A program made the translations under genes and the position numbers. The notes below the pieces were generated by a model. It did no database searches and was not told the DNA's origin. It saw only the letters and a list, made by a program, of their open reading frames with translations. A stretch of 58,186 bases of DNA. It comes from Granulicoccus phenolivorans DSM 17626 = NBRC 107789 = JCM 15570 (lineage in GTDB: Bacteria; Actinomycetota; Actinomycetes; Propionibacteriales; Propionibacteriaceae). Location of the stretch: the NCBI RefSeq assembly GCF_000423085.1, contig NZ_AUHH01000027.1:1-58186 (forward strand). Direction: 5' to 3'. Each line of letters begins with the position of its first letter. The stretch's first letter is position 1. Of this stretch, positions 13,007-51,980 are shown one piece after another.

Positions 13007-14299
13007 TCACACCGCCACCTGGGCCCGGGATCGCCGCGGCGCCGGCGGGGACGCCGCGGCCCGGCCGGCCACGTTCCGGGCCGCGAGGTAGAGGCCCTCC
13101 CGGTTCAGGTGCCGCGAGTAGGCGGGGTCCAGGTAGAGCACCGGGACCTCGCCGGCCACCGTGCGCAGGGCCGGGTACAGCTGCTCCTTGATCGGACCGG
13201 AGCCGCCGCCGTAGACGTAGACCGCCTCGCTGGCCTCGCCGGTGGCGGCCAGCACCTCGGCGAAGCGGGAGGCGACCGCCTCGACCAGGTACTTGATGTC
13301 CGGCTCGACCAGGGCCACCGCCCGCCGGTGGCGGCTGCGCTGCAGGGCCGAGGGCGTGACCTGCAGAAAGTCGGCCAGCTGCTTGCGGCTGGTGAAGCGC
13401 AGGCCGGCCTGCTCGAGGCGCTCCATCGCGTTCAGCAGGACGGTGCCATAGCCCATGCCCAGGGTGGTCGACGCCTCCGGATTGAACCGGCCGCCGCCGA
13501 ACACGGCGAAGTTGGCGGTCCCTTCGCCGATGTCGATGCCGATCGTGTTGCGGACCCCGACCAGATCGGCGGGCGTGATCCCCTCAAGCAGGCCCGGCTC
13601 GCGGGAGCGCAGGTCGGCCAGCAGGGCGGCGGCCAGCGGCTCCCCGTGGTCGGTGATCGCGAACTGGGCCGAGGCGCCCTCGGCGATCACCTGGACATCC
13701 ACGAACCGCAGCCGCACCGACACCGGGGTGCTGAAATTCTTGATCGTCACCAGGTGCACCGCCGGATCCCCGGTGACGCCGAGAAAGTCGGCGGCGTAGG
13801 CGTGCCGGCGCGTCACGTACTCCGAGATCGGCAGGGCCAGGCCGGCCCGCACGTTCACCCGCAGCTCGTGATCGGGCAGGACACCATGAGTGCGGACGTG
13901 GTCGCGCAGCGCCTTGGCGGCGAAGACGCCGAGCACGAGCACCTTGCTCAGGTACTGCTCGGCCTTCGAGTCGTGGCCCTGGTGCACGTCGAACTCGGTG
14001 AGCTTCGACCCGCGCGAGGTGAGCGCGGCGCGGCCGAACATCCGCCGGTCGCTGTCGCCGATCAACGGGGTGCTCAACGCGGCATCGAGCCGGTTGTAGA
14101 AGTCCGGGTCGGTGGCCCGCATGACGTCGGCGGCGCTCGCGTCATCGAGCGGGACCCGCGGCGACGCGCTCGGCGTGGCCATCACCGCGCTCGGCAGGTC
14201 GATCCTGTCGAGCACGGCGGTGTCGTCGTTGTGGATGACGCCCTTGACGTAGCCGTTGCCGACGTCGATGCCGCCGGTGAGTCGGAGGGTGCTGCTCAT
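13007..14299 (-). CDS. parM: ParM/StbA-like actin ATPase for plasmid segregation
   Basis: 430 residues of the actin-like partition family. The phosphate-1 loop GGIDVGNGYVKG is at the N-terminus (about residues 9-20), the phosphate-2 motif GIDIGEGTANFAVFGGG lies mid-protein, and the adenosine motif YVYGGGSGPIKEQLYP lies near residue 370. Such proteins form ATP-driven filaments that push plasmid copies apart by way of an adaptor bound to a centromere. ATG at 14299 follows GGAAGGCCAGGCAC. The adaptor-like gene lies 46 bp upstream in the same operon. The gene marks this DNA as a low-copy plasmid or similar element. The C-terminal Ala/Arg/Pro tail is probably disordered. Confidence 0.85.
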   Translation of the reverse strand: MSSTLRLTGGIDVGNGYVKGVIHNDDTAVLDRIDLPSAVMATPSASPRVPLDDASAADVMRATDPDFYNRLDAALSTPLIGDSDRRMFGRAALTSRGSKLTEFDVHQGHDSKAEQYLSKVLVLGVFAAKALRDHVRTHGVLPDHELRVNVRAGLALPISEYVTRRHAYAADFLGVTGDPAVHLVTIKNFSTPVSVRLRFVDVQVIAEGASAQFAITDHGEPLAAALLADLRSREPGLLEGITPADLVGVRNTIGIDIGEGTANFAVFGGGRFNPEASTTLGMGYGTVLLNAMERLEQAGLRFTSRKQLADFLQVTPSALQRSRHRRAVALVEPDIKYLVEAVASRFAEVLAATGEASEAVYVYGGGSGPIKEQLYPALRTVAGEVPVLYLDPAYSRHLNREGLYLAARNVAGRAAASPPAPRRSRAQVAV

Positions 14300-19737: not shown

Positions 19738-19955
19738 AGCACAAACCATAGAGCATTGCGAGTGGTTCGGGCAACATGTCGATCCGGGATCCGAAAGATC
19801 CATCCGATCCGTGAGCTGATAGGGCGGTTAGGCCGACCGGATCGGGACACAAAAATGCTAGAATTGCAGGAGCCGGGCGGGTCCCGGTCCCGGCCGTGAC
19901 TGCCGCGCGGACCCAGCCTGCCCCCGGTCGGCAGCACCCCGTCGGAAGGACCCCG
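19738..19955. promoter_or_regulatory. Divergent promoter region of lsr2-like and recJ-like genes
   Basis: A 218-bp interval with repeated GATCCG blocks (CGATCCGGGATCCG near 19780, ATCCGATCCG near 19802). A -10-like TAGAAT lies near 19859, facing the RecJ-like gene. It is AT-richer than its flanks. Confidence 0.4.
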
Positions 19956-21953
19956 ATGCCCACGCTCGCCCCGGTCGCGGATCCCGCGATCAGCCCGGAC
20001 CTCGCGCGCGACCGGGCCGGGACCGACCTGTTCGCCCTGCTGTGCGCCCGCCGGGGCTGGACTGCGGAGTACCTGACCGGGATCGAGTGCGCCGACCATG
20101 CCGAGCTGCTGGGCATCCCGGAGATCGTCGCCGCCCTGCATGCGGCGTACTTGGCCGGCGATCCGGTGACGATCGCCCCGGACTTCGACATGGACGGCAT
20201 CAGTGCGGGCGTGCTCGGCTACGCCGGCCTCAGCGAGCTCGGCTTCGCCGTGCAGCTGCACGTGCCCGACTATGAGCGCGGGCACGACCTGACCCCCGCC
20301 GACGTCGCCGAGATCGCGGCCCGCTGGCCGCAGACCCGGGTCCTGCTGACCTGCGATTCCGCGGTCAACTCCCGCGCCGGGGTGGCCGCGGCCCGGGAGC
20401 ACGGCTGGCGCACCCTGGTCACCGACCACCACCAGGAGCTGGCCCCCGGCTCCGGCGCCGACATCACCGTCGACCCGATGCGGCTGGACGAGACCTACGC
20501 GCTGACCGGCATCTGCGGCGCGCACGTGCTGTACCAGGTGCTGGCCGCCTACGCCCGGGCCCACCGGCCGGACAAGCTGTGGGAGATCGGCCTGCTCCGG
20601 CTGTTCGCCGGCCTGGGCACCGTGTCGGACGCGATGCCGCTGGTGCGGGAGAACCGGCAGCTGGTCCGCGATTCGCTGTCGCTGGCCCGGCTGCTGTACA
20701 GCCCCGCCCCGCGGACCGTGCCGAACCGGTGGGGCGGCCTGGACCCCGACCCGGACCGGATCGACGTCGACCGGGCCGCCCTGCTGCAGCTGCTGGCCCG
20801 GGGGGAGCACCATCCGGTCTTCGTCCGCGCCTTCCGCGGCTTCGCCCTGGTGCTGAAGGCGTTCGCCCAGGACGGGCGGCTGCGCGATCCCGACGGCCTG
20901 GACGAGGGCTTCTACGGCTTCTACGTCGCGCCGGCGCTGAACAGCCCGCGGCGCACCGGCGCCCCGCTGGCCCCGTGTTTCGGGGTGTTCACCGCCGCCG
21001 ACCCGGACGAGGGCCTGCGGCTCATGCACGCGGTGATCGCCAACAACGAGCTCCGCAAGGACCTCACCGAGCACCACCTGGCCGAGCTGACCGCGCCGAC
21101 CGACACCGGCGGCGCGGACCCCCAGCCGCTGGCGCCCTGGGTCTACTTCTCCGCGGCCCGGCCCGGCATGTACGGCCTGCTGGCCAACCAGCTGATGCAC
21201 CGGCACGGGCACCCGGTCGTGGTGCTGAACCGGCCCACCCGGCCCGACGAGCCCCTCGCCGGCTCCGGCCGGTCCCCGGAGGGGCTCGGCCTGATCGAGA
21301 CCCTCGAACCCCACCCGGGGCTGCAGGGCATCGGGCACCAGCAGGCGTGCGGCATCCGGGTCGACCGGGCCGACCGGCTCGACACGCTGGTCACCGTGCT
21401 GCGCACGCAGACCGCGCGCGCCCTGCCCGACCCGGATCCGGGGGCCCGGCGCGGGGACCTGGTCCTCGGTGCCGGCGGCGACTGCGACGCGCCGCTGACC
21501 GACGCCGCGGGCCTGTTCGAGCTGGCCCGGCGCACCGCCCGGCTGGCCCCGTTCGGGAAAGGGTTCCCGGAGCCGGTCCACGAGATCGTGCTGGACCCCG
21601 TCGGCCTCCGGGTGGAGCGGATCGGCTCCGACGCCGGCTGCACCCACGCGCAGACCCCCGAGCACGGGCACACGGACGCCCGCGGCCGGTGGATCTGCCA
21701 CCGGTGCAAGCGGCATCTGCGGCTGCGCACCCGCGACGGCCTGGCCCTGCTGTGGTGGAACGCCGCCGACGCGCACCACGACCCGCTGTGCCGCGCGGCC
21801 GACCCGGCCTCCGGCCCTCCCGAGAGCGCCGCGACCGCCGGCCGGCCGGGGGCGGCCACGCCCGCCCGGCTGCGAGTGCTGGCCCGGCTGCAGCTCAGCG
21901 CGTTCCGGGGCGAGGAGCGGGTCCAACTGGTCATCCAGGAGCGGCTCGCCTGA
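19956..21953 (+). CDS. RecJ-like DHH-family single-strand exonuclease
   Basis: 665 residues. The DHH motifs are in order: TIAPDFDMDGISAGVLGY (Asp76, Asp78, Asp80), LLTCDSAV (Asp134) and LVTDHHQE (DHH, residues 157-159). A later GIGHQQACGIRV corresponds to the DHHA1 substrate domain (usually GGHxxAxG, here Gln replacing a His-adjacent residue). RecJ-type enzymes degrade single-stranded DNA 5' to 3'. The C-terminus adds about 150 residues including a Cys/His cluster (GCTHAQTPEHGHTDARGRW, then ICHRCKRHL) that could bind zinc and is not usual in RecJ. ATG at 19956 follows GGAAGGACCCCG. It begins the replication-gene block. Confidence 0.8.
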   Translation: MPTLAPVADPAISPDLARDRAGTDLFALLCARRGWTAEYLTGIECADHAELLGIPEIVAALHAAYLAGDPVTIAPDFDMDGISAGVLGYAGLSELGFAVQLHVPDYERGHDLTPADVAEIAARWPQTRVLLTCDSAVNSRAGVAAAREHGWRTLVTDHHQELAPGSGADITVDPMRLDETYALTGICGAHVLYQVLAAYARAHRPDKLWEIGLLRLFAGLGTVSDAMPLVRENRQLVRDSLSLARLLYSPAPRTVPNRWGGLDPDPDRIDVDRAALLQLLARGEHHPVFVRAFRGFALVLKAFAQDGRLRDPDGLDEGFYGFYVAPALNSPRRTGAPLAPCFGVFTAADPDEGLRLMHAVIANNELRKDLTEHHLAELTAPTDTGGADPQPLAPWVYFSAARPGMYGLLANQLMHRHGHPVVVLNRPTRPDEPLAGSGRSPEGLGLIETLEPHPGLQGIGHQQACGIRVDRADRLDTLVTVLRTQTARALPDPDPGARRGDLVLGAGGDCDAPLTDAAGLFELARRTARLAPFGKGFPEPVHEIVLDPVGLRVERIGSDAGCTHAQTPEHGHTDARGRWICHRCKRHLRLRTRDGLALLWWNAADAHHDPLCRAADPASGPPESAATAGRPGAATPARLRVLARLQLSAFRGEERVQLVIQERLA

Positions 21954-37181: not shown

Positions 37182-37976
37182 ATGACCTTCCGCCACAAAG
37201 AACCCGGACCCCGTCTTCCCCGGCCGAACCGACGCAGGTACGCCCGCCTCGCCGCCGTGCGGCGGCGTCCCCACCCCCGTGACCAGCGCGGCGGCCGCCG
37301 GCGTCACCCCACACCGGCCCGGCACGGCGCCGCATGTGCGTGGTGCCCACGCCCGCTGAGCGGACTCCGGCCGGGGCCGTTCCGCCGCGCCCGGCACCGC
37401 CCCGGCCGTCCGCTCATGCCGAGAAGGGCCGTCCCGATGACCTCCGACCCCCGCCCCGACCCGGCCCCCGCGTCCACCGGACCCACCGGTTTCGAACTGG
37501 CCCGGCTGCAGCTGAGGTCCTTCGAGGCCCGCGAGCACGTGCGGCACCACCTGGGCCGCACCGCGTTCGCCGGGGATGCCCGGATCGCGGCCGTCCACGT
37601 CGAGAACACCGCTCGGGTCGACCGGGTGCACCTCACCGCGTTCGACGACGCCGGTCGTGCCGTCGGCCACGCCACGGTCTACCTGGACGTCCTGACCGAA
37701 CGACTCGACCTCACCGTGGAGTTCAGTCACGACACCACCGGGATGACGGTCCCGCCGCACTCCGACCTGGCGCACGCGGTGGCCCGGGCGGACGGCTGGG
37801 TGGTGGACATGGCCGCGCTGCGGGCCTCCCGGCGCGAGGTGGACGTGGCCCGCACCCGGCGGGCGGCGCTGCTCGCCCTGATCGGCGACCTGCTCGGGTC
37901 CGGTGAGGCCCGCGGGTTCCTGCTGGGCCCCCTGGACCCCACCCGTCCCCGACCGGGCGGTCCGGGCCGGACCTGA
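37182..37976 (+). CDS. Hypothetical protein
   Basis: The conserved-looking part starts at ATG 37437 (MTSDPRPDPAPASTGPTGFE), a 179-residue protein with beta-rich centre (VDRVHLTAFDDAGRAVGHAT) and helical end. That ATG has AGAAGGGCCGTCCCG upstream. The same frame is open from ATG 37182, which has GAGGAGCTTCG, giving 264 residues with an Arg-rich head containing CAWCPRP. I give the longer form but consider either possible. It follows the 20-bp repeat array. The function is unknown. Confidence 0.5.
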   Translation: MTFRHKEPGPRLPRPNRRRYARLAAVRRRPHPRDQRGGRRRHPTPARHGAACAWCPRPLSGLRPGPFRRARHRPGRPLMPRRAVPMTSDPRPDPAPASTGPTGFELARLQLRSFEAREHVRHHLGRTAFAGDARIAAVHVENTARVDRVHLTAFDDAGRAVGHATVYLDVLTERLDLTVEFSHDTTGMTVPPHSDLAHAVARADGWVVDMAALRASRREVDVARTRRAALLALIGDLLGSGEARGFLLGPLDPTRPRPGGPGRT

Positions 37977-38090
37977 CCGCGCATCCGCACGCGTGGACCT
38001 CCGCGGACCGGCTCACGCCGGTCCCGGGGGACGCGGCGGACGGCTCCCCGCCGGAGGCGGACTCGGCCCGGTCGGCTCCCCGGTGACCGG

Positions 38091-38648: not shown

Positions 38649-38668
38649 CCCGGCCCTTTCACTCGATC

Positions 38669-38699
38669 CTATTGATTCATGCCTCCATTCTATCAATAG
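38669..38699. promoter_or_regulatory. Inverted repeat in the divergent promoter region
   Basis: CTATTGAT at 38669-38676 is repeated inverted as ATCAATAG at 38692-38699. The right half is itself nearly palindromic (TCTAT-CA-ATAGA). It lies in an AT-rich island between the LysM gene and the rightward operon. It resembles the operators at 4086 and 14802. Confidence 0.55.
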
Positions 38700-38789
38700 A
38701 CGTATCATTGTGGTGTCGGCGGATGCCCGGGCGGACGTATCTCCCGGGACCCGGCGCCGCGACCCCTCCGCACCCCGAAGGAACCCACC

Positions 38790-39701
38790 ATGGCCAACTA
38801 CGCCGTCTCCGCCCACCAGCTGACCGAGGGCGGCACCGTCCTGGTCCGCGGCACGCTCGGCTACTCCCGGCTGACCCGCCTGATCGACGGTGAGGACCTG
38901 GTCCGCAGCAACCAGCGCAAGATCGCCGCCGGGATGAACCCGGTCACCAAGCCGCACACCACCGTGACCGTCGCCCAGGCCGAGGTCCTGTACGCCGACC
39001 CGGCAGCCCCGACCATCGACGAGCGGTTCGTGGCCGAGCGCTGCTACCTCTCGCCCAAGCACCCGGACAAGGGGCCCCAGTATTCGATCGACTCGAAGGG
39101 CCAGACCCTGCCGATCATCGCGATCCCCGACGGCGCGGGGACCTACACCCAGGACACCTCCGGCCGTGAGCTGGCCGCCGATCTGACGGTGTCCCTCGTC
39201 CTCCGGGTCTACAAGCCGCAGAACTTCGCCAACTGCGGCCTGGCCCTGGACCAGGTGATCGTGCACGAGCCGGTCAAGTACTACGGCGGGGGCGTGAACA
39301 CCGCCGAGCTGGCGGCCCGTGGGATCGTGTTCAGCACGCCGCCGCGCGCGATCCGCGCCGCCGATGCGACGCCCGCCGGCCAGGTCCCGCCGGTCCCGGC
39401 CGACGGCGCCGTCCCCGGCAGTGCCGTCCCCGGCCTCGAGGCCGCGCCGGCGCTGGTGCTGCCGGAGCCGATGGCCGACGCCCCGGTGCCGACCGCGATC
39501 CCGGCCGTCACCGGGGCGGGGCCGGCGCCCGAGCCTCGCGCGGGGGAGACCCCGGAGCAGAAGCTGGCCCGGCTGGAGGCCGAGAACGCCGCCCTGCGCG
39601 GCGGCGGATCCGCCTTCGGGGACCCCGTCGGGGCCGGCGTGGGCAGCCCCTGGGACCAGGGCGGCCACCCCGTCACCGGCGGCATCGCCTACGAGGGCTG
39701 A
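38790..39701 (+). CDS. Conserved-looking protein, candidate ssDNA-binding
   Basis: 303 residues. The first 175 are beta-rich ([40 protein letters not shown], then [19 protein letters not shown]), a layout reminiscent of phage gp2.5-like OB-fold proteins. The rest is a long Pro/Ala/Val linker and a short coiled coil ([16 protein letters not shown]), ending IAYEG. The position at the head of the AEP primase operon fits a DNA-binding role. There is no diagnostic motif, so this is a guess from pattern and context. ATG at 38790 follows CGAAGGAACCCACC. Confidence 0.5.
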
Positions 39702-39777
39702 GCACCGGGCGCCTCCGCCCCGCCGCCGGCGCCGGGCCGGCGCACCCGGTTGATCCCGCCGCACCGAGAGGAGTCGC

Positions 39778-40836
39778 GTGCCCGCCTTCGACCCGCGGAT
39801 CACCTTCGGGGAGTTCTACCGCAATCCGGTGATCCGCAGCCTCGCGCCCGCCAGCCGCTGGACCGTCTCCGGCCGGCTCGGGGACCTGGCGCCCACGGAC
39901 GCCGCAGGGCCGCCGGCCGGCGGCGGCCCCACCTACAAGGCCCCGATCGACGCCCGGGAACTGATCCGCACCGGCCGGGTCCGGGGCGCCTGGGCGGTCG
40001 ACCGGGCCTGCCTGGTCACCCTCGACGAGCTGACCCGCCACGTGCCGCGGGCCAGCAACGTCGCCTTCCACGTCCAGGCCCAGACCGACGGGGTGCTCGT
40101 GCTCGACATCGAGCCCAGCTGCCCGCCCGACCTCGCCGACGACCTGTTGCGGCTGCCCGGCCTGCTCTACACCGAGCAGTCCATGTCCGGGCTCGGCTTC
40201 CACGCCCTCGCCCCGCTCCCGGCCAACTTCCGGGACTTCCCGGCCGCGACCCGGATGCGCCGGCTGCAGGAGGAGCACCGCTGGTTCGAGCTGCTGCTCG
40301 ACCACTGGATCACCTTCACCCGCCGTCCCGTGGCGGCAACCGTCCGCGCCCGGATCGCCGGCCGGACCACCCCGCCCCGGGTCGCCTCGGTCGCCGCGCT
40401 GTACGCCCAACTCGCCGGGTCCGCGCGCCCCACCGCCCGTCCCGCGGCGCTCGATCTGGGCCCCGGGATGCCGGAGATCCCGCACGCGGACGCGATCGTG
40501 CGGCAGACCCTGGACCGGGTCCGGGGCCGGCTGCGGACCCCGGCGGACTTCCACCACGACCTGTCCCGCTGGGAGTTCTCGGTGCTGGGGGCCCTGCACC
40601 ACGCGATGCGCGGCCCGCTGGCCACCCGGACCGCGTTCGGCACCCGCTACCCGCCCGCCGCGCAGGCCCGGCTGCTCTACCTGGCCGCCCGCGCCGTCCT
40701 GCCGCACCGGCCCAAGCACGACGAACGCCGCCACGGCCGCCCGTTCCTGCTCGACCGGGCCGCGGCCCTGATCGCCGAACGCGAGGCCGCACGGTCCACC
40801 CCCGATCCTTCCTCCGACACAAAGGTCACCCCGTGA
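39778..40836 (+). CDS. AEP (prim-pol)-like primase, divergent
   Basis: 352 residues. Segment 95-185 follows the archaeo-eukaryotic primase pattern of NrS-1-like prim-pols: VLVLDIEPS (Asp110, Glu112), [18 protein letters not shown] (Ser137, His142) and WITFTRRPV. In known prim-pols these correspond to DxD/E, SxxGxH and the third strand. The first motif uses DIE and the third lacks the usual strong signature, so activity is uncertain. The C-terminal 150 residues are helical (PriCT-like in position). The start is GTG 39778 after GAGAGGAGTCGC. The stop overlaps the next start (GTGA). It probably makes primers for the element's polymerase. Confidence 0.65.
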
Positions 40837-42080
40837 AGTTCAACGACACGCTCACCACGCTCGTCCGGCAGGCCCTCGAGGTCGGCGCGACCCCGGCCCT
40901 GATGGGGGAGCCGGGCATCGGCAAGTCCTCCTTCGTCGCGGACCTGGCCTACGCCATGGGCACCCGGGCCTTCGTCCTGCCCTGCAACCAGCTGGCCGAC
41001 AAGGCCGACCTGACCGGCGCCCGCCTGGTGCCCTACACCCGGGCCGACGGCACCGAGACCTACAAACAGGTCTTCTATCCGCATCAGGTCATTCAGGAGT
41101 GCATCGAGTACGCCGAGGCCAACCCCCGGGAACGGCCGCTGCTGTTTCTCGACGAGATCAACCGGACCACCTCCGACGTCACCAGCGGTGCGCTGACCCT
41201 GGTCACCCTGCGCCGGATGGGCCACGTCACCCTGCCCGCCAACGTGCGCCTGCTGGTCGCGGGCAACGACCGGGGCAATGTCACCGCGCTCGACGAGGCA
41301 TCCCTGTCCCGCTTCGTCATCGTTCGGGTGGAACCGGACGCTGGCACGCTGATGTCGGTGCTCGGCGACGCGCTCCATCCCTGGGTGCGCAAGGTGCTCA
41401 CCCAGTTCCCCAATCTGGTCTTCCAGAAGTCGACCCCGACCGCCCTGGTCGCCGACGGCCGCAGCGACGACGACGGCGACGACAACACGGTCACTATGGC
41501 CGAGCTGTTCGACGGCGGGGAGGAGATGAACCAGCTCACCACCCCGCGCACGATCGACAACCTGTCCCGGTGGCTGAGCGCCGCGGACCGGCAGGAGCTG
41601 GCCTCCTACCTGGCCACGCCCGTCCAGATCGGGGCCCGGGAGACGACCCAGCTCAACGAGATCTGCGAGGCCTTCACCGGCGACACGATGTTCACCACCC
41701 AGGTGGTGGCCACGATCGCCGAGGATCTGGCCTCCGGCAGCGGGGGAGCCACGCCGAATCAGATCACCGTGCCGAAGCCGACCTGCTACCCCGACCTCAA
41801 GGCGGCCGGGACGGTCAGCGACCTGGAGACCCTGATCGCCGGGCTGACCCAGAACGAGATCTCCGGATCCCTGGTGTTCGCCCTCCGGGAGCACGCCGAC
41901 AACACCCGGCTGCTGGAGCACCTGGCCCAGGCCCTGACCGAGCTCCAGCAGGAGCACCTGCGCACGCTGCTGGCGCTGGCCGCGGCGGGGCAGCTGAACC
42001 GGCAGAACCAGGAGGCGCTGTTCGACAGCGACGCCCCGGTCGTCGACAAGATCCAGCCGCTGCTGGCGGCGTTCCTCTGA
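40833..42080 (+). CDS. MoxR-family AAA+ ATPase
   Basis: 415 residues. Walker A is GEPGIGKSS (residues 25-33), Walker B PLLFLDEIN (residues 102-110), then RLLVAGNDRG (sensor 1) and LDEASLSRFVIV (arginine finger). MoxR ATPases act with VWA-domain proteins as chaperones or remodelling machines, and the next gene encodes such a VWA protein. GTG at 40833 overlaps the primase stop. An acidic insertion (DGRSDDDGDDNTVTMAELFD, around residue 210) and a long helical C-terminus are present. The target is unknown. Confidence 0.85.
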   Translation: MKFNDTLTTLVRQALEVGATPALMGEPGIGKSSFVADLAYAMGTRAFVLPCNQLADKADLTGARLVPYTRADGTETYKQVFYPHQVIQECIEYAEANPRERPLLFLDEINRTTSDVTSGALTLVTLRRMGHVTLPANVRLLVAGNDRGNVTALDEASLSRFVIVRVEPDAGTLMSVLGDALHPWVRKVLTQFPNLVFQKSTPTALVADGRSDDDGDDNTVTMAELFDGGEEMNQLTTPRTIDNLSRWLSAADRQELASYLATPVQIGARETTQLNEICEAFTGDTMFTTQVVATIAEDLASGSGGATPNQITVPKPTCYPDLKAAGTVSDLETLIAGLTQNEISGSLVFALREHADNTRLLEHLAQALTELQQEHLRTLLALAAAGQLNRQNQEALFDSDAPVVDKIQPLLAAFL

Positions 42081-42117
42081 CCGGCGGCCCGGCCGCCGTC
42101 CCCCGAAGGAGATGCCC

Positions 42118-43842
42118 GTGACGATCACGGTGACCAACCAGCTGCCGGCGGTGCTCGACCCGGTGCACACCCTCGCCTGCGGCGGCGCCTACGACCCGCT
42201 GCCCGCCCTGCGGACGATGCTCGTCGACCCGCTGCTGCGGCCGCTGCCCGGCGCGGCGGCGGTGACCGTCACCGACGGCGGCGGGCACGACCTGACCGCG
42301 GACCTGCCCGACCTGATCCTGCGCTGCCTCGGGGACCGGGTCGACGTGGCCGCCGAGGCCACGGTGAAGAGCGTGCTCGGGCAGACCCTGGTGCACTTCG
42401 ACCCGCAGGCCGCCCTCCCGGTCGGCGAGGTGTTCGCGGTCCAGGCGGGCCAGCAGCACAAGTGGCCCGCCCCGTCGGCCCGGGTGCTGTACTCGGCCCA
42501 GCACGACGTGATCCCCGCGGCCAAGGGCCTGCTGGCCGGATCGGCCGACCCGAGTGAACTGTTCGCGGCCCTCGCCTACACCTACCACCCGCACACCCTG
42601 GGCTTCTGGTTCCCGACCTCGGCCGCCTTCGACGACTTCCGGGCGTGGCTGGCCCAGCAGGTCGGGACCCTCAGCAGCCTCCCCGCGATGCCGCCGGACA
42701 CCGTCCGACTGATGGCCGACTTCGGGAAGCTGACGCTGACCGGGCTCACCGAATCGCTGGTGCTGCGCCGGGACGACGCCGACGGCAATCACCCGTTCTC
42801 CTTCGCCCGGCTGCTGGTCAACCTGCTGATGACCTACGTCCGCCAGCAGCAGACCAACGCCGGAACCGTCCCCGGGAACACCGCCGGGGCCGTCCCGGGG
42901 AGCGCGGCGGCACCGCAGGCCGGAGTCCTGCCGTTCACACTCGGGGAACTGCTGTGTCCCCGGACCCTGGTGCTGGTCAACGTCGAGGCCCATGCCCGGG
43001 CCACCCCGGCCCGGGTCACCCACGAGTGGGACCTGATCCGCCGGTGCCTGGCCGGACAGGTGACAGTCGTCTCGCACACCCACCTGTCGAAGCTGACCTC
43101 GCTGGCCCGCGCCGCGGTCCGGGCCCAGGTGCTCGGCCGCCAGCAGCAACCGGGCCAGCCGGGCTCCCGCTCGGCGCAGGTGAAGTTCCGCAAGGCGCCA
43201 CCCTCCCGGCTGGACCTGTACGGGGACCTGGTCCGGGTGCTCCGGCGGATGCACACGGTCAACCGGTCGCAGCACGTCTTCCGGTCCACGAAGATGACGT
43301 TCCTCAAGGCGAACCGGCGCGACCCGGCCGACTTCAACAAGCCCGGCCGGAGTACCGCGGTGCGGTACCTGCCCGACCTGCACATCTACATCGACACGTC
43401 CGGATCGATCTCCGAGGTGAACTACCAGGAGGCGGTGCTGATGCTGATCGGGATCGCCCAGAAGCTCAACATCAACCTGTACTTCAACTCCTTCAGCCAC
43501 GTGTTGTCGCAGGAGACCCTGCTGAAGGTGGCGAACCGGTCCCGCGGGCGGATCTGGCAGGAGTTCCGCCGGGTGCCGAAGGTGACCGGCGGCACCGACT
43601 TCAAGCAGGTCTGGGACCACATCAACGCCGCCCCGGTACGCCGGCGCCGGTTGTCGCTGATGATCACCGACTTCGTCTGGGCACCTCCGCCCACCCGCGA
43701 GGAGCACCCGGCCACCCTGTTCTACGCCCCCTGCTCGGCGATGGACTGGGGCGCGATGGTCAGCGCCGCCGAGACGTTCACCAAGGCGATGAAGCACATC
43801 GACCCGAGCATCCGGCAGAAACTGCTGGGCATGGTCGTGTGA
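42118..43842 (+). CDS. VWA-domain protein with MIDAS site, MoxR partner
   Basis: 574 residues. The C-terminal third is a von Willebrand A domain with an intact metal site, YIDTSGSISEVNYQEAV (Asp426, Ser428, Ser430), GGTDFKQVW (Thr) and LMITDFVW (Asp). The N-terminal 400 residues are a novel helical/beta region. GTG at 42118 was chosen because AAGGAG precedes it at proper spacing, while ATG 42112 touches the binding site. In CoxE-like and related pairs, VWA proteins deliver substrates to MoxR ATPases. Immediate proximity to the MoxR gene supports the pairing. Confidence 0.82.
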   Translation: MTITVTNQLPAVLDPVHTLACGGAYDPLPALRTMLVDPLLRPLPGAAAVTVTDGGGHDLTADLPDLILRCLGDRVDVAAEATVKSVLGQTLVHFDPQAALPVGEVFAVQAGQQHKWPAPSARVLYSAQHDVIPAAKGLLAGSADPSELFAALAYTYHPHTLGFWFPTSAAFDDFRAWLAQQVGTLSSLPAMPPDTVRLMADFGKLTLTGLTESLVLRRDDADGNHPFSFARLLVNLLMTYVRQQQTNAGTVPGNTAGAVPGSAAAPQAGVLPFTLGELLCPRTLVLVNVEAHARATPARVTHEWDLIRRCLAGQVTVVSHTHLSKLTSLARAAVRAQVLGRQQQPGQPGSRSAQVKFRKAPPSRLDLYGDLVRVLRRMHTVNRSQHVFRSTKMTFLKANRRDPADFNKPGRSTAVRYLPDLHIYIDTSGSISEVNYQEAVLMLIGIAQKLNINLYFNSFSHVLSQETLLKVANRSRGRIWQEFRRVPKVTGGTDFKQVWDHINAAPVRRRRLSLMITDFVWAPPPTREEHPATLFYAPCSAMDWGAMVSAAETFTKAMKHIDPSIRQKLLGMVV

Positions 43843-43872
43843 GCCGTCGCCCACCCCCATCGATACCCCGCC

Positions 43873-43896
43873 GGGCCCGGCACTGCTGCCGGGCCC
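43873..43896 (+). other. Intergenic hairpin between VWA and ClpA-like genes
   Basis: A perfect 10-bp stem GGGCCCGGCA / TGCCGGGCCC with loop CTGC and no following T-run. It may set the ratio of upstream to downstream transcripts (partial terminator, or stability element). Confidence 0.45.
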
Positions 43897-43920
43897 CGGA
43901 CCCCGTCCCGAGGAGGACGC

Positions 43921-45921
43921 ATGGGCCTCAGCAATTTCACGTCCGGCCCCGACGACGACCCGAACACCCCCGGCGGCCCGCCGGCCCCGCCGCCCGGCAG
44001 CGGCCCCGGCAGCAGCTCCGGCACCGGCACCGGCGGGGGTCCCCGCGGCGGCGGGGACCCCGACGTGGCGGACCTGCTGATCGACTACAACGCGAAATTC
44101 CGGACCGCCGGCCCGACCCTGTTCCGCGACGCCCTGATCGAACAGGTCCTGGCGGTGCTGATCGGCCGGACCAAACCGAACGTACTGCTCACCGGTTCCG
44201 CCGGGGTCGGCAAGACCCGGATCGTGGAGGACATCGCTCGCCGGATCGCGCTGGGCGACAGCCTGATCCCCGACCAGCTGCGCGACCACACCGTCTTCGA
44301 GCTGCCGGTCACCAATGTCGTGGCCGGCTCCGGCATTGTCGGGTCGCTGGAGGAGAAGGTCCGCGCGATCGTGCAGTTCGCCGCCGACCCCGCCAACAAG
44401 GTGATCCTGTTCATCGACGAGATCCACCAGATCACCGGGGGCAGCTCCAGCCACGGCGACGCGACCCACCGCAAGATCTCCCAGATCCTGAAACCGGCCC
44501 TGGCCCGCGGCGAGATGGCGGTGATCGGGGCGACCACGACCACCGAGGCCCGCGGGTTCGACGAGGACCCCGCCTTCGCCCGGCGGTTCACCCCGCTGCT
44601 GGTCGACGAGCTGACCGTGGCCCAGTCCCGCCGGATCCTGCACACGGTCCGCCCGGGCCTGATCGCCCACTACCGGCACCAGGTCGGGGTCTCCGACGCG
44701 GTGCTCGACGAGACCGTCCGGGTCGCCGAGACCCACGCCCGCGCCGACCAGCACCGGCCCGACACCGCGATCACCCTGCTGGACCGGGCGATGGCGGTCC
44801 GGGTGCTGGAGCACAAGAAGCTGATCGTCGAGGCCGAGGCCGCCGGGAACACCGCCCTGGTGACCACCCTGCGGTCGATGCCGCAGGTCCCGCTGACCGC
44901 GGCCCGGGTGCGCGAGGTGGCCACCCGGCTGCTGACCGGCAACGCGCGGCGGCACACCTTCGACGTCGCCACCCTGCACGCCACCCTGACCGGGACGCTG
45001 CAGGGCCAGGACGACGTGCTCGCCCGGCTCACCGACCGGATCGCCCGGGCCGAACTCGACCTGTTCCCGACGAAGGTCCCGACCACCTGGCTGCTCGCCG
45101 GGGCGTCGGGGGTCGGCAAGACCGCCACCGCGAAGATCATCGCCGACCAGATGACCGGCACCGCGCCGATCGTGCTCAACATGACCGAGTTCCACACCCC
45201 GGCCGACACCACCAAGATCGTCGGGGCGCCGCCGGGCCACATCGGCTCGGACTCCGGCCAGGAGCTCCCGTTCGACACCCTGGAGACCAACCCGCACCGG
45301 GTGATCCTGCTCGACGAGTTCGAGAAGGCCCATCCGGCGGTGCAGCGGCTGTTCCTGTCCGCCTTCGACGAGGGCTACCTGCGCAACGCCCGCGGCAAGA
45401 TCCTCGACTTCTCGAAGGCGCTGGTGATCGCCACCACCAACGCCGCCCGGGAGGCCCTCACCGGCAGCCACACCGGCTTCGGCGCGCCCCCGGCGGCCGT
45501 CTCGACGCGCAGCCTCACCGCCGCCCTGGAAGGGTTTTTCGACGCCGAACTGCTGGGCCGGTTCTCCCTGGTCGTCGGCTTCAACCCGATCGGCGAGGCG
45601 ACCTACCGGCAGATCATGGCCGCCGAGTACGCCCGCCAACGGGCCCGGATCTGCGACCGGAAGCCCCGGCTGGCCCCGCTGCTGCCACCGGAGATCGACC
45701 CGGCCGACCTGACCCGGCTCACCGCGGCCACGTTCGTCGCGTCCCAGGGTGCCCGTCCCGCGCAGAAGGCGGTGCGGGCCTGGATCGAGGACCGGCTGCT
45801 CGCCGGCCCGTCCGGGGCGCCCAGCGAGCCGGCCCCGGTCCCGGCGGAGGAACTCCCGCCGGCAGCGGTCCCGTCGGCGGCAGCCGTCCTGCCGGACGCC
45901 GCGGCGGCGCCGGACGCCTGA
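43921..45921 (+). CDS. Double-AAA+ ClpA/ClpB-like ATPase
   Basis: 666 residues with two AAA+ modules. The first has LLTGSAGVGKTRIVEDIARR (Walker A near residue 92) and ILFIDEIHQITGG (Walker B). The second has LLAGASGVGKTATAKIIADQ (Lys400), VILLDEFEKAHPAVQ and a sensor region, followed by the ClpB-type C-terminal domain. The Clp N-domain is missing; residues 1-45 are a Gly/Pro linker. The middle domain is short, so it is not a full ClpB disaggregase. Clp ATPases unfold or remodel protein complexes. It is third in the MoxR-VWA operon, ATG 43921 after GAGGAGGACGC. It may disassemble replisome or partition complexes; that is inference. Confidence 0.82.
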   Translation: MGLSNFTSGPDDDPNTPGGPPAPPPGSGPGSSSGTGTGGGPRGGGDPDVADLLIDYNAKFRTAGPTLFRDALIEQVLAVLIGRTKPNVLLTGSAGVGKTRIVEDIARRIALGDSLIPDQLRDHTVFELPVTNVVAGSGIVGSLEEKVRAIVQFAADPANKVILFIDEIHQITGGSSSHGDATHRKISQILKPALARGEMAVIGATTTTEARGFDEDPAFARRFTPLLVDELTVAQSRRILHTVRPGLIAHYRHQVGVSDAVLDETVRVAETHARADQHRPDTAITLLDRAMAVRVLEHKKLIVEAEAAGNTALVTTLRSMPQVPLTAARVREVATRLLTGNARRHTFDVATLHATLTGTLQGQDDVLARLTDRIARAELDLFPTKVPTTWLLAGASGVGKTATAKIIADQMTGTAPIVLNMTEFHTPADTTKIVGAPPGHIGSDSGQELPFDTLETNPHRVILLDEFEKAHPAVQRLFLSAFDEGYLRNARGKILDFSKALVIATTNAAREALTGSHTGFGAPPAAVSTRSLTAALEGFFDAELLGRFSLVVGFNPIGEATYRQIMAAEYARQRARICDRKPRLAPLLPPEIDPADLTRLTAATFVASQGARPAQKAVRAWIEDRLLAGPSGAPSEPAPVPAEELPPAAVPSAAAVLPDAAAAPDA

Positions 45922-46039
45922 CCCGCCCCGCCTCCCGTCTCGTCCCGGCACCCCACACCGTCGCCCCGCGTCCGTCCCGGTCCCGGGGTGGCCGGGCCCT
46001 GCCCCCACCCGCTCTCCCGCGTCCCCTCCAGGAGTGACC

Positions 46040-46387
46040 ATGACCGTACCGATCACCGAACCCGTGACCCCCGCCACCCTGATCCCCGACACCCCGATCC
46101 TCGCCCGGGCGCCCGCGCGGGCCCGCCGCGACGCGACCCGGGTCGCCGCGCAGGCCCGGCAGCACCTGGCCGCCCGGGTCCCCGACCCGGGGGAGTACCG
46201 CGCCCTGGCGCTCATGCTCGGGCTGCTGCAGCCCGACGGGCCAGCGACCGGCGAGGCCGAGGGGGCGGGCGAGGCCGAGGGTGCGGGCGAGGATCTCGCC
46301 CCGGCCGACCCCTGGGACACCGATCCCGGGGGCGCCGTCGTCGTGCTGACCCGCGCCGAACCGGAGGCCGGCGACCCGGCCGAGTGA
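46040..46387 (+). CDS. Small acidic hypothetical protein
   Basis: 115 residues: an Arg-rich helix (ARAPARARRDATRVAAQARQ) followed by a short hydrophobic helix and an acidic GEAEGAG repeat region. ATG at 46040 follows CAGGAGTGACC. It sits between the ClpA-like and UvrD-like genes and may be an adaptor. No family is recognised. Confidence 0.6.
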   Translation: MTVPITEPVTPATLIPDTPILARAPARARRDATRVAAQARQHLAARVPDPGEYRALALMLGLLQPDGPATGEAEGAGEAEGAGEDLAPADPWDTDPGGAVVVLTRAEPEAGDPAE

Positions 46388-46428
46388 GCCCCGCCCCTCC
46401 CGCCGACCGACCGCAGAAAGGGCACACC

Positions 46429-49215
46429 ATGCCCCTCATCCTTGACGAGCTCGACACCGACGCCGCCACCGGGCCCGCGACCTCGATGAACCCGAAATTC
46501 TTCTCCTCCAAGCTCACCGGGGTCGGCAAGAAGACCGGCCTGCTGAACGAGACCCTGCGCCCGGTCAACACGGTCACCAAGTACGCCGTGGCGGCCGACC
46601 TCGAGGTGAAGCAGTCCACGACGCAGCACGACGTCACCACCACGACGGTCCCGCTGGGACCGGTCACCGCCCGGACCCTGCGCTCCGGCGGCCGGTTCAC
46701 CGTGCCCGTGCCGCACCCCGACGACCGGTTCACCGTCGCGGTCGCGCCCGGCGGGGTGCAGGACCGGGAGCTGTCCTTCGACATGACCCCGCAGGCCCTG
46801 GTGCTGTGGGAGGACAAGGCCGGCGACCGGACCGTCCGGGACGTGGTCGTGCAGTACCGGATGGAGGTCCACGTCCTGCGCCGCGGCCGGCCCGAACCCG
46901 AGCGGGCCGCGGTCGTGCTGCCGCCCGGCCGGACCCGGGGCCCGCAGGACGCGGAGGCCTTCGTGTGCTGGGAGACCGGTCCGGTCGAGCACGCCCGGAC
47001 GTTCCTCGAGGTGGTGCTCACCCACACCGGCGTCCGGGCCGCCAACCTGGACGACCTGGCCGACTGGCTGGAGAACTACTCCGTCTACGAGCGGATTGCC
47101 CGGCTGGCCGAGATCTGGAGCACCGAGGCGATCGCCGCCGAGATCGGCCACGTGATCGCCGCCCTGCCGCCGGACCCGACCGAGGACCAGCAGCAGCTGC
47201 TCGCGGCGCAGCTGCGCTACCTGGAGAACTACGGCGTCTCGCTGGAGGCCTACCGCACGATCCACCGGCAGCTGGCCGCCGCGTTCCCCGACGCGACCAC
47301 CGCCCGGCTGGCCAAGCAGAACCTCAACCTGTTGATGAACCACACCCTCAACGAGTTGGCGCAGGCGACGGGACAGCTGGTGACCCCGCCGTCCCCGCCG
47401 GTCCCGCCCGTGCTGCCGGGGCACCTGTCGCAGCAGCAGTTGCGGGCGATCACCACCGCCGCACCGCTCGCGCTGATCCAGGCCGGGGCCGGGTCGGGCA
47501 AGAGCCACACGATCCTGCACCGGATCACCTACCTGGAGGCCTGCGGGGTGCCGTCGGGCGACATCACCGTGCTGTCGTTCACCAATGCCGCCGCGGACAA
47601 CATCACCGCGAAGAATCCGGACGTCGGGTCGATGACGATCGCCCGGATGATCATCGAGATCTACGCGTTGAACCATCCGACCCACCAGGTGTCGGCGGTC
47701 GAGACGCTGGTCAACTCCCTCGACATCTTCTTCCCGAGCAGCGCGTTCGCCGCCACGTTCCGGGCCTGCCTGCTGGCGGTGGAGAACAAGAAGGTGGGCG
47801 CCTTCACCGAGCTGAACAGCTTCGTCGAAGCACACTTCGACGAGGTCGTCACGGTCCTGGACCGGATCCGGCAGACCACGCTGGAGCTGCAGATCATCCT
47901 CTGCTACCAGCGGATCGACACGATGGCCGAGCCGCCCCGGGTCCGGTCGCGGTACCTGATCATCGACGAGGTGCAGGACACCTCGGTGTTCGAGTTCATC
48001 TACCTGATCAAGTACGTGACCAAGCATCGCCAGTCGCTGTTCCTGGTCGGGGACGCGTCGCAGACGCTGTACGAGTTCCGCTCGGCCAACCCCCGGGCGC
48101 TGAACACGCTGGAACGCTCGGAGGTGTTCGCGACCTACCGGCTGACCACCAACTACCGGTCCAACCAGGAGATCCTGGACTTCGCGAACGCGGTGCTCGG
48201 GGGACTGGAGACCAACCGGTTCGCCAACATCCAGCTGCAGGCGAACGCGCTGGCGGTCCCGACCGAACAGTCGTTCCGGGAGAAGGTGACCCTCGACTAC
48301 CGGGGGCTGGCCCGGGTGAAGGGCTTCCTGAGCACCGACCTGCCGCTGATCCTGCGCAACACCATCCTCCCGACCTATGTCCGGCCGCGCCTGGAGCGGG
48401 GCGAGCAGGTCGCGTTCCTGGCCTTCTCCCGCCGGGAGGTGACCACCATCCAGCGGATCCTGGAGGAGACCTACCCGGACAAGAAGGTCGTCTCGCTGGT
48501 CAGCGAACGGGCCTACGCCACCGACGTGTTCTCCACCTACGTCCGGCTGTTCTGGAACGACGTCCGTCAGGTCCGCCCCGGCGACGCGGCGTTCGTGGTC
48601 TCCCAGGGGATCCAGCACAACCTGGCCAAGCTGACCCGCCACGGCCAGGATCCGAAGACCGAGAAGGCGGTCCTGCTCACCCTCGCCGAGTGGTGGACCC
48701 AGAATCAGGCCACCGTCACCGGATGGGTCACCCTGTGCCGCCAGCACGCGCTGAGCGACGACGCGTTCTTCGACCGGCTGCGGCAGAACCTGCTCGACTT
48801 CGAGATCGCGAAGAACCAGCAGAAGCTGAACGTCACCCAGCACCGCAACCAGGAGCGCAAGAAGCGGAACCTGGAGTCCCGGCCGGACCTGGTGGTCTCG
48901 ACCATCCACGGCGCCAAGGGGCTGGAGTTCGACCACGTGGTCGTGCTCTACAACACCGGCACCGCCGCCCAGGCGGACCTGCGGATGTACTACGTCGCCT
49001 TCACCCGGGCCATGCACTCGGAGTACGTCCTGGCCTACGGCACCACCCGCAAGCCGGCGATCGAGAGCGACTACGCGGCGATCGTGGCCCGGCTCGCGGC
49101 CCGGGACCGGGCGACCGCCCTGCGCGCGCAGGGGATCGACCCGGATCTGCTCACCGGCTCCGCGGACGACGCTGCGGCCGGTGATCCGGCGCTCGAGCCG
49201 GCCGGGACCCGCTGA
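46429..49215 (+). CDS. UvrD/Rep-type SF1 helicase with novel N-terminal region
   Basis: 928 residues. Helicase motifs run from residue 325: motif I QAGAGSGKSHTI (Lys358), Ia LSFTNAAADN, II IIDEVQDTS, III LFLVGDASQTLYEFRSAN, IV NYRSNQEILDFAN, V STIHGAKGLEFDHVVV and VI YVAFTRAMHSE. It translocates 3' to 5' on single-stranded DNA. The first 325 residues are not part of UvrD/Rep. They begin MPLILDELDTDAATGPATSM and contain a beta-rich part (residues 60-190) and a helical part. ATG at 46429 follows AGAAAGGGCACACC. It is downstream of the MoxR-VWA-ClpA set, in the same direction. Confidence 0.88.
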   Translation: MPLILDELDTDAATGPATSMNPKFFSSKLTGVGKKTGLLNETLRPVNTVTKYAVAADLEVKQSTTQHDVTTTTVPLGPVTARTLRSGGRFTVPVPHPDDRFTVAVAPGGVQDRELSFDMTPQALVLWEDKAGDRTVRDVVVQYRMEVHVLRRGRPEPERAAVVLPPGRTRGPQDAEAFVCWETGPVEHARTFLEVVLTHTGVRAANLDDLADWLENYSVYERIARLAEIWSTEAIAAEIGHVIAALPPDPTEDQQQLLAAQLRYLENYGVSLEAYRTIHRQLAAAFPDATTARLAKQNLNLLMNHTLNELAQATGQLVTPPSPPVPPVLPGHLSQQQLRAITTAAPLALIQAGAGSGKSHTILHRITYLEACGVPSGDITVLSFTNAAADNITAKNPDVGSMTIARMIIEIYALNHPTHQVSAVETLVNSLDIFFPSSAFAATFRACLLAVENKKVGAFTELNSFVEAHFDEVVTVLDRIRQTTLELQIILCYQRIDTMAEPPRVRSRYLIIDEVQDTSVFEFIYLIKYVTKHRQSLFLVGDASQTLYEFRSANPRALNTLERSEVFATYRLTTNYRSNQEILDFANAVLGGLETNRFANIQLQANALAVPTEQSFREKVTLDYRGLARVKGFLSTDLPLILRNTILPTYVRPRLERGEQVAFLAFSRREVTTIQRILEETYPDKKVVSLVSERAYATDVFSTYVRLFWNDVRQVRPGDAAFVVSQGIQHNLAKLTRHGQDPKTEKAVLLTLAEWWTQNQATVTGWVTLCRQHALSDDAFFDRLRQNLLDFEIAKNQQKLNVTQHRNQERKKRNLESRPDLVVSTIHGAKGLEFDHVVVLYNTGTAAQADLRMYYVAFTRAMHSEYVLAYGTTRKPAIESDYAAIVARLAARDRATALRAQGIDPDLLTGSADDAAAGDPALEPAGTR

Positions 49216-49283
49216 CCGGCGACCGGGCCCCGGCAGGGTTCACCGCCGGTTCCGCTCGACACCCCACGCAGAAGGAGTACCCC

Positions 49284-50603
49284 ATGACCACGTTGAAGGC
49301 TCCCGCCGAATCCGGCACCGGCTCCGGGGCGCACCCCGCCGCCGGGGACACGGTGACCTACGAGCTGACCCTGATGGAAAGCCACCACCCCGTCTTCTGT
49401 GACAAGTACCCGTCGGCCCGGGCGCGGCTGACCCGCTGCGTGTCCCTGTTGTGCGAGGGCGAGGTGTACGGCCGTCGCATCAACGGCGCCCGGGCCGCCG
49501 CGATTCAGCGCTGCTACCACGCGCACAGCGATGACTGGGACACCGATCCGGACGGTGTGTTCCACGCGCTGGCCGCGCTGTGCGAGCCCTGGGACGTGCG
49601 CCTCTACGCCAAGAACCGGCCCGCGCGCGCCGAGCAGCCGTCCACGCCCCGGGGCGCCGGGCAGGCCGGCGCGTCTCGGCGCGCCGAGAAGGCGCCCACG
49701 TCGCCCACGTCGCCCACGCCTCCGCCGCCGGAGCGCCGGGCCTCGGCGGCCGGAGACCCCACGGTCTTCGGGGTGGTCACCGTGTACGGCCCCTGCGAGG
49801 TCGTGAGAGAGTACTTCGCGACCCGGGAGGCGCGCCGCCGCAGTCTGCTCGAGCGGCTCGACACGCTCGGCTGCGACACCGAGTACCCGGACGCGGAGGC
49901 CGGGATGTACGACCGGCGCCTGGTCGCCCGCCTGTCGAGCCTGATCGCCCCGGCCACCGTGGTGCTCACCGAATCCGACTGCGGCCTCGGCACGCACCCC
50001 TGCCCGGCGCGGCACGACGCGGCCGGCGCGACCAAGGCGGCGTCGCACCGGCCACCGGAGCACGCCGCGGGGCCCACCGACCTGCGGACCGGCAGTCCGG
50101 CCCCGGCCGCTCCCGCGGTTCCCGCGGTTCCGGCGATGGTCGACGCCGCCCCGGCCGGAAGCCTTCCGGACGTGGGCCCGCGCCCCGCACCTGCGGGCGC
50201 GACCCTGGCCGAGCAGGCTGCGCTGCTGGCCGCCCAGCAGGCGGCCCACCTGGCCGCCGAGCACGCGGAGATCGCCCACCGGCTGATCTGGAAGGCCACC
50301 CGCGAGCGGATCCTGGCGGTGCGGTCGATCCTGAAGGGCCGCGGACTGATGGGGTGGAACGGCTGCACGCACGGTCTGCCCGCGGAGTTGGAGTTCGCCG
50401 CAACCGCGTGCCTCAAGGGCACCCGGATGTCCATCGAGGACGGGCACTGGCTGGTCACGGTCACCGACCGGGCCCGGCACACCTACGGCCGGCAGATGGA
50501 GATCCCGCCGGCGTTCCTCGGCGTGTCGCCCGAGGAGGCCCGGGTGCTCGCCCGGCAGATCCTGGACGGCCGGCCCCGGCCACCCGGGAACGGTGCCGCC
50601 TGA
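49284..50603 (+). CDS. Hypothetical protein with two conserved-looking domains
   Basis: 439 residues. Segment 30-120 (MESHHPVFCDKYPSARARLT, then CEGEVYGRRINGARAAAIQR) and segment 160-230 (VVTVYGPCEVVREYFATREA) are separated by a Pro/Ala-rich linker. The C-terminal part (ATRERILAVRSILKGRGLMG) is helical. There are no recognisable catalytic motifs. ATG at 49284 has AGAAGGAGTACCCC upstream. It continues the operon behind the helicase. Confidence 0.6.
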   Translation: MTTLKAPAESGTGSGAHPAAGDTVTYELTLMESHHPVFCDKYPSARARLTRCVSLLCEGEVYGRRINGARAAAIQRCYHAHSDDWDTDPDGVFHALAALCEPWDVRLYAKNRPARAEQPSTPRGAGQAGASRRAEKAPTSPTSPTPPPPERRASAAGDPTVFGVVTVYGPCEVVREYFATREARRRSLLERLDTLGCDTEYPDAEAGMYDRRLVARLSSLIAPATVVLTESDCGLGTHPCPARHDAAGATKAASHRPPEHAAGPTDLRTGSPAPAAPAVPAVPAMVDAAPAGSLPDVGPRPAPAGATLAEQAALLAAQQAAHLAAEHAEIAHRLIWKATRERILAVRSILKGRGLMGWNGCTHGLPAELEFAATACLKGTRMSIEDGHWLVTVTDRARHTYGRQMEIPPAFLGVSPEEARVLARQILDGRPRPPGNGAA

Positions 50604-50992: not shown

Positions 50993-50994
50993 CG

Positions 50995-51686: not shown

Positions 51687-51980
51687 ACCCGTAATGTGAG
51701 CACGGGCGATGATCTCGATGGCGCCCGATGATGCCCTGGAGCGGTCCTAGAAGGTCCGATCCCTGGGACTTCCGGCCGGGTGATCTGGCCCAGACGGTGA
51801 TCGGCGGGAGCCCGGGGCAAACCGCCGATTCGTAACAAAGCATTGCGCCCTTGGCGAGACTGAGGGACGCGCGAGGCTGGGTACGGTCCTGTCAGCGCCA
51901 TGCGTGATACTGAGGGAGAGTCGACGAGGAGCGCTGACAACAACAAGAACGGCACTGGATGCGACAAGGAGGAAGAACTC

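Follow-up and report, generated by a model that had tools for sequence, protein, structure and literature searches.

The window analysed here is the whole 58,186-nucleotide contig NZ_AUHH01000027.1 of Granulicoccus phenolivorans DSM 17626, and the subject is a block of six genes in it, which code for a single-stranded DNA-binding (SSB)-like protein (ssb), a primase-like protein (prim), a MoxR-type AAA+ ATPase (moxR), a VWA protein, a double-ring Clp/Hsp100 ATPase (clp) and a UvrD-like helicase (hel). The six genes stand in the same order and on the same strand in all 31 other carriers found. We believe that the block is the distal half of a largely self-contained replication and DNA-processing module of about 30 kb, carried by large conjugative actinomycete elements, and that MoxR, VWA, Clp and the helicase serve it as a dedicated remodelling unit; the probability of this reading is, in our estimate, about 0.6. 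Its replication context is well supported, and proteolytic remodelling is put forward as a hypothesis. The families are ordinary, their union is unusual, and the module is real and deeply conserved.

An earlier note on this DNA, made from the letters only, had placed the start of the block at the primase gene; it begins one gene earlier, with the SSB-like gene at 38790. The five families named there and a small acidic protein were confirmed as open frames of the plus strand at the positions collected in Table 1. The note had set a conserved neighbourhood as the check beforehand, with scattered homologues as the refuting outcome, and the order proved to be kept in 31 of 31 carriers, all of them found via VWA or primase similarity. 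A scan of genome contigs with the single VWA protein of the window confirmed nothing; a profile from a four-row alignment then found 21 loci in the species-genome collection and one IMG/VR contig. The VWA protein is matched in 3 of 72,556 plasmid records (plasmids of Rhodococcus, Gordonia and Streptomyces), which brings the number of other loci to 25, and in 25 of these 25 the six genes follow in order on one strand. (When frames are listed from stop to stop, moxR precedes prim in the window alone, since its frame there opens further upstream.) Five of the 31 carriers, which had no part in the building of profiles, came from a later order-level search, and all five have the block; with the window's own genome, 6 of the 391 genomes of the order carry the VWA gene.

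A primase scan of viral contigs returned two contigs, one already known and one very distant. The latter has 251,549 bases and a guanine-plus-cytosine (GC) content of 43% (over 38.9 kb); it keeps the six-gene order, with MoxR, VWA, Clp and helicase directly adjacent, and its proteins are 25-43% identical to those of the window. Its host is probably a Bacillota bacterium, judging from the GC content and from dockerin-like repeats seen by eye. A RarA-like gene, also read by eye, stands between its primase and MoxR genes.

Besides this distant low-GC contig, the carriers span several orders of actinomycetes; the hosts named are Arthrobacter, Pseudarthrobacter, Streptomyces, Nocardiopsis, Promicromonospora, Brevibacterium and Actinomadura, in addition to the three plasmid hosts. 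Clustered by Clp identity, the window and the 31 carriers form 21 groups at 98%, 15 at 90% and 13 at 80%. The six proteins agree in their pairwise distances, with correlations of 0.90-0.985. In two carriers a gene is split between frames (VWA in G970, L131:9082-11121; helicase in G998, L127:12454-15553), which may be decay or an assembly error. The block is rare: after weak matches were dropped, only the window's own genome remained among 198 family and 396 phylum genomes. The dropped VWA matches were G041, G044 and G189 of the family sample, which gave nothing with a 26-sequence profile at E 0.01, and G353, which is of the metallopeptidase-VWA type. One of 394 class genomes has the primase, and one of 396 phylum genomes has the N-terminal domain of the helicase; both matches are in the window's own genome, so these samples gave no instance of either outside the block.

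The genes that accompany the block point to replication. The frames of the window were compared by tblastn with 14 elements, several of whose layouts are partial, so that a miss is not an absence. A DNA polymerase, a SNF2-type helicase, prim, moxR, VWA, clp and hel were each found in 14 of 14; ssb was found in 13, and in the fourteenth, plasmid pGKT2, by profile. The RecJ-like exonuclease, the D5-type primase-helicase and the VRR-NUC nuclease were found in 12 of 14 each, and the ParM-like protein in 6 of 14. All 25 carriers checked have the polymerase, and so does the distant contig; it lies on the same strand and 8-35 kb upstream where contig coordinates match. The identity of draft contigs is a matter of inference here and is unclear in L023 and L026. 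Its motifs FYDIES, DFTSYYP and STNTDGLY, which we take to be the family-B exonuclease motif and polymerase motifs A and C, are conserved in four sequences, and motif C reads NTDG. Pfam and PDB sequence searches with the polymerase gave no match, and it is annotated as hypothetical in three plasmids. The suggestion of the earlier note that the system may load, disassemble or police the replisome of the element fits these data: every carrier checked has the polymerase, and most of the 14 elements also have the primase-helicase, the nucleases and the SSB-like gene.

The link to conjugation comes from plasmid pGKT2 of Gordonia KTR9, which also has a MobL relaxase: its secretion coupling protein has a relative in 24 of the 24 carrier genomes or records tested. 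Since the polymerase, the backbone genes and the coupling protein all accompany the block, we regard it as part of the replication and DNA-processing backbone of conjugative elements and not as loose cargo. The term plasmid, used in the earlier note, goes further than the data for the window itself, which is a whole 58-kb contig of a draft of 74 contigs. Integration ends of the NtRootA1 element were looked for: six 20-kb pieces contained no tRNA, and apart from one of 18 bases no repeat turned up.

Whether the genes form one operon, as had been proposed, has a divided answer. A single operon is plausible in the window, where the genes share a strand and the gaps from the SSB-like gene down to Clp are 76, -4, 31 and 78 bases; 507 bases separate Clp from the helicase, with the small acidic gene inside. 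In the 25 relatives the gap before MoxR is 68-340 bases in 23 and 938 and 1559 bases in the other two, and the gap between Clp and the helicase runs from 100 to 2031 bases; different small genes fill the latter in three annotated plasmids. The small acidic protein is hardly conserved: the best tblastn match has E 6e-4 in one of the 14 elements, and four others lie at E 0.1-1. A scan of 36500-51000 gave no promoter-like sites; it gave two sites of terminator type, against 3.0 expected, and both of these lie on the minus strand. The scan says little because the GC content is 71%.

The MoxR protein has an intact AAA+ core, with Walker A and B and the arginine finger in 27 of the 27 sequences compared. 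Its VWA neighbour is a weak match in Pfam (E 0.14, below the cut-off); all five positions of its metal-ion-dependent adhesion site (MIDAS), DxSxS..T..D, are confirmed in the window, in agreement with the earlier note, and they are kept in 27 of 27 save that the Thr is Asn in two. MoxR and VWA proteins work as a pair.

The Clp protein had been described as a ClpA/B-like ATPase without the N-domain, and this stands: two rings are matched and the N-domain is absent. The catalytic residues of both AAA+ rings are intact in 27 of 27, and the closest solved structure by sequence is ClpE, followed by ClpB and ClpC. With the ClpE, ClpC and ClpA unfoldases the protein has in common the two rings, the Walker motifs and an xGF loop; it differs from them in that the N-terminal adaptor domain is missing, the N-terminus is short and rich in Gly and Pro, and the first-ring pore aromatic is mostly absent. 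About 50 residues lie between the matched rings, against 158 in ClpB, and therefore a long M-domain is presumably lacking. Clp rings unfold proteins, and some of them feed ClpP, for which the consensus of the docking loop after sensor 1 is [LIV]G[FL]. At this place the xGF of the element's Clp aligns with VGFG of ClpE and VGFN/AGFG of ClpC; xGF is found in 27 of 27 and [ILV]GF in 23 of 27.

UvrD-type helicases strip DNA. The helicase of the block has the superfamily 1 motifs GAGSGKS, IDEVQD, NYRS, TIHGAKGLE and YVAFTRA in the window, with four key residues in 27 of 27. Its 325-residue N-terminus, described in the earlier note as novel, is indeed present as a domain and had no match in the 395 other genomes of the phylum sample; it is, however, common to the carriers and so a feature of the family as a whole. 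In Arthrobacter sp. efr-133-TYG-118 (L035:14071-17871) the Walker A motif of the helicase has an insertion of about 340 residues that looks like an intein.

The protein at 38790-39701 may be called SSB-like by its predicted OB fold, and its gene stands at the equivalent place in 31 of 31 other carriers. Its model is closest to DUF2815, the Enc34 SSB and T7 gp2.5. The best Foldseek E-value is 2.3e-3; in VIA these entries fill rows one to six, at Z 7.0-7.6 with 112-123 residues aligned, and the next, unrelated row has 5.7. An OB fold over about 120 residues would be common to these proteins and ours, which differs from them in being longer, in its proline-rich tail and in having no useful sequence match in the PDB set.

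The primase-like protein had been called a divergent prim-pol-like protein; the motifs bear this out, whereas the support from the fold is weak. It has no Pfam match. Within the motif scheme of archaeo-eukaryotic primases (AEP), hhDhD/E, sxH and hD/E, as defined in the available part of PMC5862659, motif I reads VLDIE or a variant of it (all 27 sequences have D110 and E112), motif II is present as GFH/GYH (H142 in 27 of 27), and the invariant E171 (27 of 27) is the candidate for motif III. The NrS-1 primase-polymerase takes the first three rows in Foldseek, at E 0.01-0.06, and rows one to six in VIA, at Z 6.4-7.4 and a root-mean-square deviation (rmsd) of 13-15 A; pRN1, the LigD polymerase domain and Prim-PolC rank lower, with pRN1 at Z 4.3 and rmsd 3.8 A over 125 residues. 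We accept it as an AEP of the NrS-1 type, by motifs and, weakly, by predicted fold. NrS-1 is the best fold match of the model, and its catalytic motifs, motif III as a candidate, recur in the element's primase, which differs in its 352 residues, in lacking a helicase domain and in having no sequence match to NrS-1 in the PDB set. With the VWA, SSB, primase and polymerase profiles, sequence searches of the PDB yielded no useful match.

The gene content being as observed, the element would replicate by means of the module's own SSB-like protein, primase, primase-helicase, polymerase, nucleases and two further helicases, and MoxR, VWA, Clp and the UvrD-like helicase may serve one client pathway. 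As client we presume a replication or relaxosome complex, and host ClpP is presumably recruited. The MoxR ring would work with the VWA protein, the MIDAS of which would grip the client; the double-ring Clp would thread the client, probably into host ClpP, and the UvrD-like helicase would clear or re-set the DNA. Initiator, primer or relaxosome complexes would be dismantled in this way, so that each round of replication or transfer could finish and restart. Contact between MoxR and VWA is expected from the family; docking of Clp to ClpP and coupling of VWA to Clp and the helicase are our conjecture. It is tempting to go further and to propose a replisome with built-in regulated proteolysis, in which MoxR-VWA would pick DNA-bound replication or relaxosome proteins and pass them to an N-domain-less Clp that borrows host ClpP, a UvrD-like motor with its own docking domain would strip the DNA, and copy number and transfer would be set by destroying spent initiation complexes; the set would be old enough to be common to actinomycetes and a very distant, probably Bacillota, host. 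We hold this extended version only tentatively and consider it unlikely as a whole.

Several points weigh against the reading as replication module with remodelling unit. The mechanism is a proposal drawn from genes and models. Mean pLDDT (predicted local distance difference test) is low in the SSB model (66.4) and in the primase model (69.7), and in neither case does a match reach Z 8 in VIA or E 0.001 in Foldseek. As for docking to ClpP, the strict [ILV]GF is absent in 4 of 27, among them the window, which has TGF. At the second-ring pore position 26 of 27 sequences have Tyr, and the window's Clp alone has His; at the first-ring pore position 24 of 27 lack an aromatic residue (23 have Ile and one has Leu), and the others have Tyr (two) or Phe (one). 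The coupling protein of the window's genome lies on another contig (C43), so that one element comprising both contigs is an assumption. Plain descent of whole elements would also give the correlation of distances, and conserved linkage speaks for joint function or joint inheritance and not for physical contact. VWA and primase similarity guided the search for carriers, which could therefore have missed incomplete copies of the block, and many carriers are close relatives.

The genes could serve conjugation rather than vegetative replication: SSB, primase and helicase would process the transferred strand, and MoxR-VWA-Clp would dismantle the relaxosome or establish the element in the recipient. 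The coupling protein in all carrier genomes or records tested and the relaxase of pGKT2 argue for this, as do the MoxR-VWA genes of the conjugative plasmid pCAR1 (ORF101/ORF103), which are conserved in R478, Rts1, SXT and R391 and for which a role in transfer is suggested (PMC2642839, available part). In those elements, too, the MoxR AAA+ and VWA genes lie close together in a conserved conjugative backbone, their role being unproven, as here. The available part of that paper names no partner of the Clp, primase or UvrD kind; unlike the pCAR1 type, the element's VWA protein matches only its own three carriers among the plasmid records, in a comparison that did not include the pCAR1 and SXT proteins directly. 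Our block, moreover, adjoins the polymerase, and in pGKT2 and NtRootA1 it lies on the opposite strand, tens of kilobases from the secretion cluster; two virus-library carriers scanned for the coupling-protein domain TraG-D_C gave no match (one has only 35 kb, which makes this weak), a point that counts against our own reading as well. We consider a role in conjugation rather than in vegetative replication unlikely. A module for recombination or repair, in which SSB, RecJ, the VRR nuclease and the helicases restart or recombine the element while MoxR-VWA-Clp clears stalled proteins, would agree with the RarA-like gene of the distant contig, and RecJ, VRR-NUC and UvrD families are often repair proteins; the nearby polymerase, the D5-type primase-helicase and the AEP-like primase exceed the usual needs of repair, and the proposal seems to us quite unlikely.

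The earlier note had also thought of defence against competing elements, and an anti-phage or anti-plasmid island, of the MoxR-vWA ternary type or Gabija-like, finds some favour in that MoxR-vWA pairs are central to the ternary conflict systems described in the available part of PMC7159879, with which the block has the MoxR and vWA core in common, and in PADLOC matches of the helicase (GajB, best E 2e-32, and others) and Clp (PDC-M37B, E 2e-24; DolB, E 2e-18; others weaker). These matches, however, cover general helicase and AAA+ cores and look like ordinary AAA+/UvrD similarity; MoxR, VWA and the primase have none, and no GajA was found among the nine proteins scanned. Pfam gave no beta-propeller, VMAP or peptidase domain in nine genes (bpMoxR reached E 0.018, below the cut-off); in contrast to the ternary systems, no third, sensor or effector, component was recognised, and the block is linked to replication genes in a fixed position. 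The claim of defence has therefore been dropped as very improbable. Least of all do we expect a chaperone for virion assembly in a cryptic phage, a role put forward for the MoxR and vWA proteins of jumbo phages, the latter fused to a metallopeptidase, and reported for an archaeal virus (PMC7824862, available part). The two carriers in the virus library, the phage-like SSB fold and the polymerase family could be cited for it, and the N4-like Pseudomonas phage LIT1 has in gp33 a related MoxR (phrog_1297 E 3e-26; profile E 4e-15) near helicase and DNA polymerase genes. Yet the VWA proteins of the window and of the distant contig have no match among 50,697 phage records; LIT1 gp35 and the G353 protein combine VWA with a metallopeptidase-like stretch (HEIEH in gp35) that is not seen in the element's VWA family, and the profile of this family does not match gp35 at E 1. 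No Terminase_6N match was found in the two virus-library carriers, and the sole one in the window's genome lies on another contig, C50. In jumbo phage 121Q the ClpA-like gene stands in a run of structural genes, and the 31.6 kb inspected there have no annotated MoxR or VWA. LIT1 gp35 itself (L113:9537-10763) is labelled HNH endonuclease, a name that phrog_1314 also bears, and the label seems wrong.

The earlier note knew of no described system of this kind. The combination was not found in the open-access (PMC) literature, where a search did not find the six-gene set described; MoxR-VWA pairs, however, are already described on conjugative elements (PMC2642839) and in phages (PMC7824862), at least in the available parts of these papers. 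Such pairs recur in both, with no proven client in the cited work as far as available. The block locks the pair to four further proteins (SSB-like, primase, Clp unfoldase, helicase) in an element with its own polymerase; owing to the linkage in 31 of 31 carriers the question of the client becomes directly testable, and the four neighbours are the likely partners. It also exposes a little-noticed class of actinomycete elements, pGKT2 included, which seem to carry much of their own replisome and several of whose replisome genes, the polymerase among them, are annotated as hypothetical.

Table 1. Genes of the block and of the surrounding backbone in the window
Feature	Position	Strand	Length and basis
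SSB-like protein, phage type	38790..39701	+	303 residues; OB fold predicted, proline/alanine-rich tail
Archaeo-eukaryotic-primase-like protein, NrS-1 type (prim)	39778..40836	+	352 residues; motifs, fold matches
MoxR-type AAA+ ATPase	40833..42080	+	415 residues; Pfam AAA_5 E 3.7e-11, phrog_1297 E 3e-26
VWA protein	42112..43842	+	576 residues; N-terminal ~415 residues family-specific; phrog_1314 E 3e-9
Double-ring Clp/Hsp100 ATPase without N-domain	43921..45921	+	666 residues; Pfam AAA_2 E 3e-28, AAA E 2e-23
Small acidic protein	46034..46387	+	117 residues; 19 D+E, 9 K+R
UvrD-like SF1 helicase, 325-residue N-terminal domain	46429..49215	+	928 residues; Pfam UvrD-helicase E 1.2e-23, phrog_1967 E 1e-51
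Family-B-like DNA polymerase	26528..29854	+	1108 residues; phrog_1252 DNA polymerase E 1e-18 to 1e-25
D5/P4-type primase-helicase	24639..26486 (start uncertain)	+	Pfam DUF5906, Pox_D5; phrog_864
RecJ-like DHH exonuclease	19896..21953	+	Pfam DHH, RecJ_OB; phrog_2484
VRR-NUC / Holliday-junction-resolvase-like nuclease	29992..30615	+	PF08774 E 0.0014 (below cut-off); phrog_93 E 5e-23
SNF2-type / phage DNA helicase	30654..32423	+	Pfam Helicase_C; SNF2-rel_dom just below cut-off; phrog_62 E 3e-101
ParM-like actin, partition	13007..14299	-	ALP_N, MreB-like_C below cut-off; phrog_691 partition protein E 3e-17
Conserved backbone gene, no function assigned	37371..37920	+	tblastn in 11 of 14 elements

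Some smaller observations concern the surroundings of the module. A gene for a WhiB-type regulator lies in the backbone (35332-35733), with similar stretches in 4 of the 14 elements by tblastn. At 51900-52418 a SocA/Panacea-type antitoxin-like gene is followed by a small gene, possibly a toxin-antitoxin pair beside the module. Two carrier plasmids have TnsA-like, transposase, TniB-like or ATP-binding genes (L043:193-3952, L042:14867-20028), and in the plasmid of Streptomyces NBC_01454 genes of the TnsA/transposase/TniB type lie about 2.4 kb from the D5-type primase gene.

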